DNA of 64,000 nt from Asterochloris sp. CNOR1. Taxonomy: Eukaryota; Chlorophyta; Trebouxiophyceae; Trebouxiales; Trebouxiaceae. Under the pieces are notes generated by a model. That model saw only the letters and a list, made by a program, of their open reading frames with translations, made no database searches and had not been told where the DNA came from. The stretch lies in contig OZ017765.1 of assembly GCA_963969365.1 (NCBI GenBank), positions 151,391 through 215,390 of the forward strand, read 5' to 3'. A program made the position numbers and the translations under genes. This document shows, piece after piece, positions 30,006-49,788 of this stretch. Position 1 is the stretch's first letter; each line of letters opens with the position of its first letter.

Positions 30006-32392
30006 TGCTACCGCCTTGTACCCTTCCTGCCATAGGCAAAACTTGCTTCGCACACAAGCAAGATCGACACAATTTTAGTTACTTTACCTTCCTTTGGCTA
30101 CAAGGCGGTGACCATTGTGTTACGCCCTACTTGTTGGTACGTGTTGGTACGTGTTGCTACGTGTTGCTGGAGCAAAGATAATGAATAGGTCTACGAGCTT
30201 CCTTCGGTGCACATCAGAAGCAAAGGGTACTCGTTTTGTGCCCTTTGTGCTCTCTTCGCGGCCCATCCTTGATCGAAGATAGGACGTAGCAAGACTTGCT
30301 TCGCACACGAAAGGTTATTTCTTTCGAAAAAAAAAGACAAGCAATACAAGTCAACTATAACGAGCCGTTGTATCTTGTTTTGCGCCTTGTTGCTTGATAT
30401 TCCGCTTTAGAACGCTTTATATGTTTTCCAAGCTTTGTCTAGAACAAGCCAAACATGTCTTGCTTTGCACGGGAAAGCAAGAACACCAATCGATCCGCTT
30501 ATTTGGTCCTTCTATACGAGAAAAGAGATATGCTTCTCGATTGGTTGCGTTACAAGACGTTTTGTCGGGGCAAGTAAGGGATTGAGTCGAAAGTAGGTGC
30601 AAAGCAAAAGGATAACCAAGTTACACCGGCAAAATACATGTACTCTAAAACTGGAGGTGTTGGTACGTGTGAAGGGTAGGTCTACCTACTTGCTTTGCAC
30701 AAGAAACAAAAGGTACAAAACCTCTACAAACTACTTTTAGTTACACGTCTACGAGCTCAGTATGTTCGAAACAAAACCTAGTAGTTGTGCGTAATCTTAA
30801 GCAAACTGCGTTTTTTCCTATAATAGCCACCTAAAACAAAAAAAAAGAGTTGGAAAACTAACCTTTAAAAAACACTCATTAAAGTTCTTTGAGTCACCTA
30901 CATTGCTTGATATCAGCGTCTACAAGGTGCTTTGCTCTACGTTGCGCGGCAAGAAGAAAGCTTTTGTTTAAGTTCCCTATTACTGTTGTTTCTAAAAACA
31001 CAGTGTTGTTAGTATTTGTGTGAGTACATTCGTGGCTTAATCTTATTAACTTTTCTAAGTAATGGTTGAAGTAGAGAAGCTCTTAAACGAGTTGATCTAA
31101 GTGGCCTGTTACGCCTTGAACTTTAAAGTTGAAATTGCTTATCCCAATTTCTCGATCAACCGTTTGTTATTGGGCCCAAACGTGTAGTTGTTGTTTTAAT
31201 GTTCTTAGTTACTATTTGGTGTTTATTTAGCAGAATTATCACATCTTACGGTTAATTAAGTGGACAAGTTTGGCACTTGCTGGTAAAAAAAAGACGTACT
31301 GCTTTTTCCTAAGGAAGACGTGATACAAAGCAAGATCTTCGGTTAGTGGTAGTGTTTTGCTCTAAACAAAGTACTTATCGCATTGCATGTGGTAGTCCAA
31401 AAAAATAACCCTCGCTATGTTAGTATTTTGTAAGGTAATCTTACCGTTCAGCCTAGGAGCTGATTTGTCAATGCACGCTATCCACTCGATTTGTTCGACC
31501 TACAACTAACGATAAAATGTTGATTTTACCTTAGAGTAACCTTTAAGTAGCCATTGTGAAGGCGTAATGCAATACACTTTGTAGTAAACCTGTTTTGGGT
31601 TTCTCTGTGTTGCTTGGCAATCTTGCAAATCAGTAAAAGCAAAACATCTTGTCCTACGAGTGACCTTTGATTACACGTTGACCTAACACAAAGATCATTT
31701 GTTCCTTGTTTTTGTTTTCTTCCGTAGAAAAGGATCACGTGTTTCTTGGCATAACCTTCTTGTACCCTACGTGCTGCCTTTGCGTAACTTTGCTACGCAC
31801 GCAAAATGTTTTTAAGCAAAGCATATAAAATCAATACCTCTTCTTATTGCTTTGCATGTAAGGGTAGCAATTCGTGTTGCTAAATGGTACAAGACGTAGG
31901 ACAATACATATAAACAGTTTTGCTAGTTGTAAGCCATGATAAAATCGAAGTTATACTCTTGACATATTTAATAAGTCAAAGTTATTATTAAAGAAATGGT
32001 ATTATTAAATTAGATTTTATCAAACAAATATATTGTTTTGCACAACTTACCCTGCAGACACAAGCAGTACAACTGTAGTTAACCGATTGCGCGTCAACCC
32101 AAGGAAGTGGCAAGTGTTGTTGTCTTACCTATTGTCTAGGAAGAGTACAAGTTTTGCTTGGCACGAATGATTACACGTTCAACACTTGGTGCTTGCTTGC
32201 CAATACCTTTGGTTGACGCGAAGTATAACGTCTTGTATCGTTGATGCAAGGCACTTGCTTTGCACTTACACGATTACTTGCGTGCCAAGCAAGTACTTTG
32301 CATCAAAGTAACAACGCAAAACAAGACAAAGAGCACAAGTTAAAACCGGGCAGAGTGTGTGATCGTAAAAGTTGTAATTTTATTTTTGGAAA
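30006..32392. repeat. 2.4-kb clpP-rbcL spacer
   Basis: R6 near 30203, R1 near 30268, an R4-linked cctaaggaagacgtgatac at 31305. 30980-31260 is repeat-poor and shows short open frames on both strands, none long enough to call. A strong promoter lies at 31959. The rbcL leader after it, about 400 nt, again contains repeats. Confidence 0.55.
31959..31988 (+). promoter_or_regulatory. rbcL promoter, TTGACA-18-TATTAT
   Basis: A perfect -35 TTGACA (31959-31964) and -10 TATTAT (31983-31988), 18 nt apart, within a 71-bp segment (31935-32005) repeated upstream of the ORF at 47896-48480. The next plus-strand gene is rbcL, whose leader would be about 400 nt. Confidence 0.65.
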
Positions 32393-34156: not shown

Positions 34157-34351
34157 ATGCTCGAGTTTTGGAAAATACAATTGACAATTAGCGCAGCTGC
34201 GGTCGCGTGCACAAAATTTATTGAAGCTTTTTATGCTAGTGCTAACAAGCAAAATGAAAAACAAGAAATAACCGTAAGGTTGTATCAAACCTCGATCATG
34301 AAAGATCGTTCGTTCATCAGTGAAATGGTTAAATGTGAATCAAATTGCTGA
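34157..34351 (+). CDS. Unrecognised ORF, 64 residues, overlaps next ORF
   Basis: Starts at ATG 34157 (MLEFWKIQL) with a hydrophobic N-terminal stretch (IQLTISAAAVACTKF) then polar sequence. It overlaps the following frame by 32 nt. Near its end it reads ISEMVK, and the next frame continues KWLNVNQIADVL, so the two could be one gene with a frameshift, or be joined by frameshifting. No family recognised. The sequence is repeat-free, unlike the spacers around it. Confidence 0.4.
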   Translation: MLEFWKIQLTISAAAVACTKFIEAFYASANKQNEKQEITVRLYQTSIMKDRSFISEMVKCESNC

Positions 34352-34940
34352 TGTTTTAACTCAAGAAGAATGTGCTTTAATGGACAAAAAAGGTAGGTTT
34401 TGTTTTGAAGCACAAGTACAGCAGTCTATACTTCTTTTTGGAAAGAAGTTTGTTAAAACACATATACTCGGTTTTAAAGAGGGTAAAAAGAGAGCCAATT
34501 TTTTTGAACAAAATGGCCCGTTAGTTTTGGACGTTCCGAGGAACGTCTTTAAGAGTCATAGTCTTGTAATAGTAGGTGGAACAGGAAAGTGCGAAGTTTA
34601 TACCACAGCGACCAACCACCCCGAGATGGAGCCATATCGACTTGGTGAAAAACCTCATATCTATGATACCTACAAAAAACACATTACTGACTTTGTAGGC
34701 TGTAAATCAAATTGGGCATCCATCTCTACAGCACAAATGCGTTGGATTTATAGGAACAAATACAAGCAAAAACAAGAAGCCCAGCAAATTGAAAACTTAG
34801 AAAACCACGTACAAGATCAACTTAAAAATGAGCGACAATTACAATTTATACGGACAGAACCACCGATTTTTCCTAACAAGTATGACGCAGCAGGACGTAA
34901 CGTCCAATACGGGTCGATTGGGATTGGATTGGTCGCTTGA
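34320..34940 (+). CDS. Unrecognised ORF, 206 residues
   Basis: Opens after a TGA at 34299; the only available start is GTG at 34320. The protein is soluble-looking and mixed-charge, with FFEQNGPLVLDVPRN, SLVIVGGTGKCEVY and a glutamine-rich helical stretch (KYKQKQEAQQIENLENHVQD). It ends in TGA, the only candidate gene here to do so. A 13-bp hairpin follows at 35009. Coding looks real: long, repeat-free and between rbcL and trnfM. I do not recognise a function; phage or plasmid origin is possible. Confidence 0.5.
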   Translation: MKWLNVNQIADVLTQEECALMDKKGRFCFEAQVQQSILLFGKKFVKTHILGFKEGKKRANFFEQNGPLVLDVPRNVFKSHSLVIVGGTGKCEVYTTATNHPEMEPYRLGEKPHIYDTYKKHITDFVGCKSNWASISTAQMRWIYRNKYKQKQEAQQIENLENHVQDQLKNERQLQFIRTEPPIFPNKYDAAGRNVQYGSIGIGLVA

Positions 34941-47133: not shown

Positions 47134-47845
47134 AAGAATTTCATACAAAAAAAGGCCAATTTTGGTGCAAAGCAAAAAGAGCAATTGATAACCGTTCTCT
47201 AAAACAACACATCTCGTTTGTTGTGACTTTGTTTAGTAGACCAATTGCAAAGCATCTGTTGCCTTTGGCTACAAATTTTGGTTACACAACAATTAAGAGT
47301 TTTTATGTGAAGTTGAAAACTTAAAAAAGTTCAATATACAAATTCAAGTTTTGGTTAAGAAAACATTTTACTTTGCACTTGCAAAACCTCCTTTTAAGTG
47401 GTTTACTTTCTTTCTTTTGAATAATGTTATTTAAATTATATCATAAAACAGTTGGAAAGTAGAACCGTTTTCAACAGATTCAGCACATGTAACGGTAACA
47501 ATGTAAGTAATTGATAAGTAATGACGAAAACAAACTCTAGTTACTCTTGCGTGCCAAACAAGTGTTGCCTTCGGCTACAAATGCCAAGCAAGTAGGTAGA
47601 CGTGAGCCGAAAAGATTTTACGAGCTTCTTATTGTACCCTTTGCCAAGAACGAGAGAAAGACCTATCCTTGATCGAAGATAGGACGTAGCAACACGTCCT
47701 TCAAACGCGCACGTTATGCGTACCAAGAAGTGCAACCAAAGATAGGGCGTAATTGCCTTTGCCTACAACCCTTCTCTGACAAACAAGGAATACAATAAGA
47801 AGCACGCAATCGTTTTTAGATAGAACAAAGTAAGTAACTAAGTCC
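47134..47845. other. Spacer upstream of psbB
   Basis: 47185-47520 is AT-rich and probably holds the psbB promoter (TATAAT read on the minus strand at 47435-47440). 47550-47820 is repeats: R2 at 47566, R5 at 47640 and R1 at 47668. Confidence 0.5.
47435..47440 (-). promoter_or_regulatory. Possible psbB -10 box
   Basis: TATAAT on the minus strand, about 300 nt before the psbB start. A weak -35 (TTCTAC) lies 18 nt upstream. Assignment to psbB rests on position only. Confidence 0.4.
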
Positions 47846-47877
47846 TTGCCTGCCATGTGTTCTCACTTGGCAGGCAA
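47846..47877 (-). terminator. 10-bp hairpin after the unrecognised ORF
   Basis: ttgcctgcca and tggcaggcaa form a perfect stem with a 12-nt loop, 19 nt beyond the stop codon of the ORF at 47896-48480. Its position fits a 3'-end stem for that ORF. Confidence 0.6.
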
Positions 47878-47895
47878 ATAGTAAAAGTTGTTACC

Positions 47896-48480
47896 TTAAA
47901 AATCTCTTTTTTGTTTTCTAAACCTGTTTAAAAGTTTCAAGATAAAATTACTAGTTACCTTCTTGTTTTTTTGTTTCACTACCTTTCGCAACCGTTCAAC
48001 TTTTTGCATTAAAAGAGGAAGTGGGTTCTCAAAAGTCAATTTGCACGACAATCTAACAAATCGCTCGAACATTTTATCTAGTCTATGTTCAATAATTGGA
48101 TGGAATTGGTTGTCCGGGATAGAACATATTTCCTCCAGCAGCTTTTTTACGGCTAGCATCTCTGCTATTAGCTCCCAATCTTTCCTTTGAGTTGCTTCGA
48201 CAACATCCAACCCAATTTCTCCACTATTTTTAAGTAGAGCTTCTTTATAAATAGCAGCTTTTTTTTCTTCCTCAGAAAGCTCTTTTATTACTTTAAAAGC
48301 TTTTACTTCGAGTGCTTCCATTAACTTTTCAAGCTTACGCCTCTCCACTTCTCCTTCAGAAGGAGATTTACGGAGGGCGTTCTTTACATCGTCTAATTGG
48401 ATTGCAAGGTCGAGTAGTTGACTTCAAAAAGGTTCTGAAAGGTTTTTATATTTTTGCAGGTAAAAAGAAAAATTTTTCAT
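47896..48480 (-). CDS. Unrecognised ORF, 194 codons with one in-frame TGA
   Basis: ATG at 48480 with an excellent AAGGAG 5 nt upstream. The frame reads MKNFSFYLQKYKNLSEPF, then TGA at 48424-48426, then continues without stops for 175 codons to TAA. The downstream part is charged and helix-rich (EERRK-like runs: VERRKLEKLMEALEVK, ELSEEEKKAAIYKEALL, MQKVERLRKVVKQKNKK). A GTG at 48348 could restart a 150-residue version but lacks a ribosome binding site. The upstream DNA copies the rbcL promoter segment and a hairpin follows. I do not recognise a family. It may be a recently broken gene, or be read through. Confidence 0.55.
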
Positions 48481-48535
48481 AAATTCTCCTTACTAATAAG
48501 TTAAAAAAAATATATTTTATAATACCATTTCTTTA

Positions 48536-48565
48536 ATAACAACTTTTGCTTACTAATAGTGCCAA
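48536..48565 (-). promoter_or_regulatory. Promoter of the unrecognised ORF, copy of the rbcL promoter
   Basis: The 71-bp segment 48519-48589 (minus strand) matches 31935-32005 at about 62 of 71 positions. The -35 is TTGGCA (48560-48565) and the -10 TGTTAT (48536-48541), 18 nt apart; both differ by one base from the rbcL copy. It lies 56 nt before the ATG. Confidence 0.6.
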
Positions 48566-48589
48566 AAGTATAACTTCGATTTTATCATG

Positions 48590-49788
48590 TTTCATAACTA
48601 GCAAAGCTGTTTGTATGTTTTGTTCCACGTGTTGTATTGTTTGGCAACACAGTTTTGTACCCTAGCAACACAAGCGATTTGTGTACCGTAGACCAGAGGT
48701 AGTGTAGCCAAAGGGTACAATAAGAAACACGTGTTGCGTCTCAAGGAAGGGTTATCAAGGGTACAAGAACGTAGAACAAGCAAGTAGTAAAACAAAACGA
48801 TTTTCCACTTGCTAGTTACGTTCAAGTTAAGCACCTGTAAAAAAAGAGTTGCAAAGCATAATCTTTACAAGCCAACCATTTTATCGTTCGTAGGGTGATA
48901 GTTTTCCACGTTTCTTTTTTTAACTAAGTTAGTACCCTCAGTGCAAGTTCTTTCTCAATGTAGTTGCATAGAAAAAAGAGCATATTCGACGGAATCCATC
49001 CACGTTGCACAAAAACAGCAAAAAAGGCAGCACAGTTAACAAACAAAACCCAATTGTTTTCCAAGTAATATCACAGGCGCGTGTATTTAGCAAACAAGGA
49101 GATTAACTCTTGTATTGCACAAACTAACGTTTTGAAAACAATCGTAAGGTTGGAGGTACAGGTAACATTCTGTGCGAAAGAAACAGATCGCTTTTCTATC
49201 AAAAACTCTACTCGTGTTGGTAGGTGATGCTTTGTATGGATAGGTCTACGAACAAAGCAGGTTAAAAGCAAAAGGTTCAAAACCAAAGGTCCTGCGTCTA
49301 CTTACGAACGGTTACTCATAACCGTAGAACCGTAAAACCGTAGAACCGTAGAACCGTAGGTAAACCTATTCTTTGAACGTACTGTTTTGCAAGTACGACA
49401 GGCTCCACGTCTATGTCAACCGATTGGTTCGATTTGCTTTGCACGTAAGCAAAGCAACCAGATAATCGTGCTTCGCTCGAAAGTGCCGCTTTCTAATTGC
49501 TCGTCCTACCTACTTGTAGCCGAAAGCAACACAAGGAAGACGTGCTGCGCTCTACCTTTGATTGACATGATGCCAAGTAAGACCTTACTTTACCCCAAGG
49601 CAACACAAGTAGTAGTGTTGTTACCTCCCAAGGTAGATCTGTCCATACAAAGCATCACGTACCAACACGTACCCTACAAGTAGGTTGCACTAAAAACAAA
49701 ACCTTTGTGGAAAGTTAAAAAACTTTTAAATTGTGTTATACTTGTTGTTATGTTATAAATGAAACAATAAAGTACAACTAAAATTATT
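48590..49788. repeat. 1.2-kb spacer before trnK
   Basis: R2-like pieces (48710, 49515), a degenerate aaccgtaga run (49320-49360), and a promoter-like pair at 49731. 48850-49200 is repeat-poor with no recognised gene. Confidence 0.5.
49731..49759 (+). promoter_or_regulatory. trnK promoter, TTGTGT-17-TATAAA
   Basis: -35 TTGTGT (49731-49736) and -10 TATAAA (49754-49759), 17 nt apart, ending 29 nt before trnK. Confidence 0.5.

Follow-up and report, generated by a model that had tools for sequence, protein, structure and literature searches.

A gene-like cassette in the plastid of the green alga Asterochloris sp. CNOR1, in which a TGA interrupts the reading frame shortly after the start codon, is probably a nonsense-mutated and decaying paralogue of a plastid gene that has been touched by gene conversion. 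The window analysed here is a stretch of 64,000 nt (C21:151391-215390), part of the 215,390-bp contig C21 in a genome of 56.4 Mb and 21 contigs. Pfam matches in the window are to NifH/frxC, a nitrogenase-like reductase, ATP synthase alpha/beta, cytochrome f, a PSII protein, ParA/MinD and a carboxyl transferase, and from their translations we take genes of the window to be chlL, chlN, atpA, psaA, psaB, petA, rbcL, psbB, minD and accD. The Pfam matches and the recognised translations together mark the contig as a green-algal plastid. A 206-codon frame terminated by TGA also lies 3' of rbcL (34320-34940, plus strand); it has no match in Pfam or NCBIfam and no clear paralogue within the readable plastid.

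The layout that the earlier note had read on the minus strand, from the AAGGAG and the ATG through 18 codons, the TGA and 175 open codons to the TAA and a 10-bp stem, was located in full (Table 1). Over its 194 codons, this frame, called copy a here, holds a single stop and no frameshift. When the 175 downstream residues were searched against all six frames of the genome, they matched copy a itself and three more places, each of them in the plastid (copies b, c, and d). The same four places were recovered with copy d as the query, and no family member was found on the other 20 contigs among the matches listed from the searches with either copy. A sensitive local search extends copy b in the 5' direction, where residues 6-53 of copy a match C21:74383-74225 (45%, E 2e-6), and the 5' part of copy b carries four indels that break the frame; the copy also has a TGA. 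Copy c, over the stretch matched by the copy d query, contains two TAG and one TAA, and it ends about 0.8 kb 5' of the ATG of copy d on the same strand. Copy d is open over its first 206 codons (C21:122906-123523), and its frame continues to C21:122501, the limit of the stretch read; a frame of 2,032 codons given for this copy includes bases beyond that stretch, and we do not adopt this figure for its length. The visible stretch after copy d is weakly resembled by C21:128523-128849 (27%, E 0.003), possibly another relic.

Table 1. Positions of the cassette, its paralogues and its upstream elements. Positions are those of the window unless preceded by C21.
Feature	Position	Strand	Remarks
Copy a of the four-copy plastid ORF family	47896..48480	-	ATG (48480-48478), 18 codons, TGA, 175 codons, TAA (47898-47896)
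In-frame TGA of copy a	48424..48426	-	aligned position in copy b is a sense (Arg) codon
AAGGAG	48486..48491	-	5 nt ahead of the ATG
3' hairpin	47846..47877	-	14-nt arms (47846-47859 / 47864-47877) 93% complementary, 10-bp perfect stem; within the tract common to copy b
Tract homogenised with copy b (C21:73.7-74.1k)	47776..48198	-	422/423 identical, with an abrupt edge at 48199; gene conversion probable
Upstream module	48507..48663	-	about 80% alike to the stretch 5' of rbcL (31861-32018, +), same sense
Decayed 21-nt core of the copy a module	48545..48565	-	7 mismatches to the form identical in rbcL and copy d
21-nt core 5' of rbcL	31959..31979	+	quasi-palindrome beginning TTGACA
21-nt core 5' of copy d	C21:123745-123765	-	identical to the rbcL core
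Copy b	C21:73812-74189		92% over residues 52-175, E 1e-66, one TGA
Copy c	C21:124323-124643		43%, E 3e-18, one TGA, one TAG and one TAA
Copy d	C21:122951-123277		31%, E 8e-10, no stop

We compared the residues that stand at the TGA in the sister copies. The surroundings are near-identical in copies a and b (P-F-stop-S-Q-L-L in copy a and P-W-R-S-Q-L-L in copy b), and the sense codon of copy b at this position indicates that the codons ahead of the TGA were coding in the family. Copy d has Arg at this site in two of three alignments, one of them with Arg pre-entered in copy a, and Pro in the third; copy c is ambiguous here, and copy b alone is firm. The earlier note had allowed for homologues that start at the GTG at 48348 with nothing upstream, but the alignment with copy b runs through the TGA and takes in about 13 codons ahead of it, so the gene did not begin at this GTG, and copy d also has an upstream part.

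The 3' parts of copies a and b are far more alike than the rest. Beyond the edge of the shared tract, from 48200 to 48730, 410 of 514 aligned bases are identical, plus gaps. Judged from these sequences, the 3' parts of the two copies were probably made alike recently by gene conversion or an equivalent recombination. Because copy b is broken by indels in its 5' part but has a clean 3' part that matches copy a, conversion of copy b by copy a is the most likely direction.

We next consider selective constraint and the age of the break. The NG86 dN/dS ratios are 0.49 for a-d, 0.31 for c-d and 0.58 for a-c, where dS is high, the protein-made alignments lower dN and the a-d ratio spans the whole history. 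The differences between copies a and b in the 5' part fall on the three codon positions at 30/90, 20/90 and 17/89, with no third-position excess. At 66 scored a-b differences, the outgroup copy d agrees with copy a at 26 and with copy b at 15, and copy c agrees with copy a at 23 and with copy b at 14 of the 60 differences scored for it. Since both side more often with copy a, copy a changed more slowly, and it was probably kept longer than copy b. In neutral simulations of the full length of copy a, P is about 0.002, assuming that the 3' part is copy a's own; for the independent 5' part, P is 0.067 at half of the a-b divergence, 0.19 at a third and 0.28 at a quarter. A fully neutral history of copy a is thus disfavoured over the whole length, and weakly so for the independent 5' part at the value for half of the divergence. 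The one-stop frame, the slow change and the well-placed ATG and AAGGAG are in keeping with a copy that was constrained until a short time ago, or that still yields a product.

The module upstream of copy a resembles the stretch in front of rbcL, and similar modules precede copy d (80%) and copy b (77%). A fifth place, C21:80376-80485, matches in the outer part only (85% over 110 bases), and a longer four-way alignment of the module gives 72-79% identity. Outside the 21-nt core, the rbcL and copy d modules are alike at 138 of 199 sites, while the core itself is identical over all 21 nt. Copy b has 4 mismatches to the core, and a search of the readable plastid allowing up to 4 mismatches found, beyond rbcL and copy d, the copy b place only. 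A generic promoter scan did not single out the core of copy a. On this pattern, the core looks retained in front of open genes and lost in front of broken ones, and it is a putative promoter.

A model of copy a in which Arg replaces the stop, built on a two-sequence alignment of copies a and d, consists of helices only (pLDDT 72, pTM 0.49). When this model was compared with PDB structures by Foldseek, 253 matches had E <= 10 and none reached E <= 0.001, the best being 0.085; since no structural match is significant, no function follows from the fold. A sequence search of the PDB gave 2 matches (E 0.52 and 0.65), NCBIfam gave nothing at E <= 0.1 for copy a or copy d, and copy a reaches no cut-off of Pfam or NCBIfam. 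The likeness of copy a to the immunity protein CdiI_ImmP (PF24172), a weak match (E 0.001 and 0.00077; 19.8 and 20.1 bits, cut-off 33.2), was rejected and is treated as chance, as the homologous copies c and d are unmatched. In addition, no relatives were matched in phages and plasmids, and none were confirmed among the stretches that fitted the pattern in viral contigs (14 with copy a and 8 with copy d as the query) or in GTDB genomes (66, with copy a only). According to PMC4524492, trebouxiophycean plastids carry free-standing ORFs, some in non-identical copies within one genome, and copy a, an unusual ORF of a green-algal plastid in several non-identical copies, is like them in this respect. 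It is unlike the ORFs tabulated there, which resemble DNA- or RNA-acting proteins, in falling below every Pfam and NCBIfam cut-off.

Whether the in-frame UGA acts as a stop depends on how the plastid uses this codon. In 8 conserved genes of the window, 4,133 codons include no UGA and 96 UGG. We then surveyed the readable plastid, leaving out C21:117001-122500, for TGA in frames bounded by TAA or TAG with at least 100 codons and a codon score above 0.06. One to three TGA were present in 13 frames, a count that lies apart from frames with four or more TGA other than psaA and from divergent genes below the filter. The translations of 10 of the 13 were inspected; the other three are copy b and two frames antisense to tufA and atpA. 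In the inspected frames that we take to be tufA, atpI, psbE, atpE and rpl20, the TGA lie only 5' of the start, as do all four TGA of the psaA frame, and three inspected frames were not recognised as standard genes. The other two inspected frames, recognised by their translations as chlB (C21:58945-60522, minus strand) and ycf4 (C21:45288-46118, minus strand), terminate at UGA, and in chlB a TAG comes directly after it. Thus, no UGA was found at conserved positions inside conserved genes among the 8 clean window genes and the 10 of 13 TGA-holding frames inspected. The 29 tRNAs listed (10 in the window and 19 in other pieces, with C21:117001-122999 outside the scan) include trnR ACG, CCG, and UCU, and trnW CCA, the anticodon that the earlier note had given, and none has a UCA anticodon. 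Two tRNA-Tyr(GTA) genes are also predicted in the plastid (L018:2775-2857 and L025:798-880). The missing internal UGA, the ends of chlB and ycf4 and the missing UCA tRNA indicate that UGA is a working stop, and on the same three grounds a change of the plastid code was rejected as the main reading.

The earlier suggestion that the TGA is read found no positive evidence. If the UGA were read as an amino acid or edited, the full 194-residue protein would be made, with Arg as the residue expected from copy b and partly from copy d. There are precedents in UGA=Arg, proposed for Trentepohliales plastids (PMC8692980), and in chlorophyte plastids with UGA reassignments and a putative dual UGA and a peDinoflagellate plastid with UGA edited to Arg (PMC12574857). 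Copy a is like the Trentepohliales case in that its in-frame UGA faces Arg in a paralogue. However, the reported Trentepohliales UGA lies inside standard genes, whereas here the conserved genes examined are without it, the stop is in one copy and two other copies are broken. With the use of UGA in this plastid also against it, we regard reading or editing of the codon as very improbable. A double meaning, in which UGA would be a stop in chlB and ycf4 and would be read (perhaps as Arg) or edited in the cassette as an expression switch of a lineage-specific protein under the rbcL-like module, likewise seems highly improbable. One in-frame stop in an otherwise clean frame could also stem from a fault in the assembly, or from mixed plastid genomes among which the TGA is one variant, and the near-identical stretches of copies a and b could mislead an assembler. 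However, the 423-bp near-identical tract ends 226 bp short of the TGA, and the adjoining bases also differ from copy b, so the TGA is not one isolated change; we consider such an artefact or mixture very improbable.

We also weighed whether the frame owes its length to chance alone and had never been a gene. The earlier note had called this unlikely, and on length alone the claim proved weaker than stated, as 5 open runs of at least 175 codons occurred in simulated intergenic DNA (30 x 40 kb). The codon-usage score of copy a (0.083) is only marginally gene-like, the 99th percentile of 1,068 overlapping pieces of intergenic DNA being 0.078; one antisense frame of the same stretch scores higher (0.0996), and the training set of the score is partly mis-framed (1 TGA and 15 other stops among the 12 genes given). 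The absence of a third-position excess points the same way. The claim is borne out, however, through homology to the three further plastid places, with protein-level similarity to copies c and d and dN smaller than dS in the pairs a-c, a-d and c-d, which leaves a chance frame hardly credible. A shortened protein from an internal start, either the GTG at 48348 (residue 45) or the ATG at 48321 (residue 54), by direct initiation or re-initiation after the UGA, is unlikely, although it has points in its favour: 150 codons are open from the GTG, GGAG stands just ahead of it, and the regions of copies c and d matched in the genome searches lie 3' of both candidate starts. Against it, the GGAG is merely 2 nt from the GTG, and copy b aligns through the upstream part, which indicates a longer ancestral protein. 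Such a start would also cut the predicted helix 18-38 and part of helix 44-89 of the modest-confidence model, and the 21-nt core ahead of copy a is decayed.

We therefore return to the decaying paralogue as the probable reading, for which we infer the following order of events. An ancestral gene, of which copy d would be the open representative, may have been duplicated within the plastid together with the module also found before rbcL. Copy a would have stayed open longer than copies b and c before it gained the premature UGA at codon 19. If the plastid reads this UGA as an ordinary stop, only an 18-residue peptide would come from the ATG, and copy a would have lost its function as a nonsense pseudogene, probably a young one. 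The 3' parts of copies a and b would have been homogenised recently. Of the earlier suggestion that the gene was broken very recently, the break is upheld by the broken copies b and c, the sense codon in copy b, the decayed core in copy a and the UGA that ends chlB and ycf4, but "very recently" is not.

On this reading, the apparent recoding becomes an example of the decay of a plastid gene family: within one plastid, some copies have decayed further than others, and a sharp tract of probable conversion lends a presumably dead copy an intact look at one end. It also cautions that a single in-frame stop is insufficient to infer recoding. A decaying duplicate is ordinary in kind and useful as an example, and the most interesting leftover is the 21-nt element common to rbcL and copy d. 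Exact before rbcL and one open family copy, and lost before two broken copies, this element is a candidate for a plastid regulatory site that can be tested.
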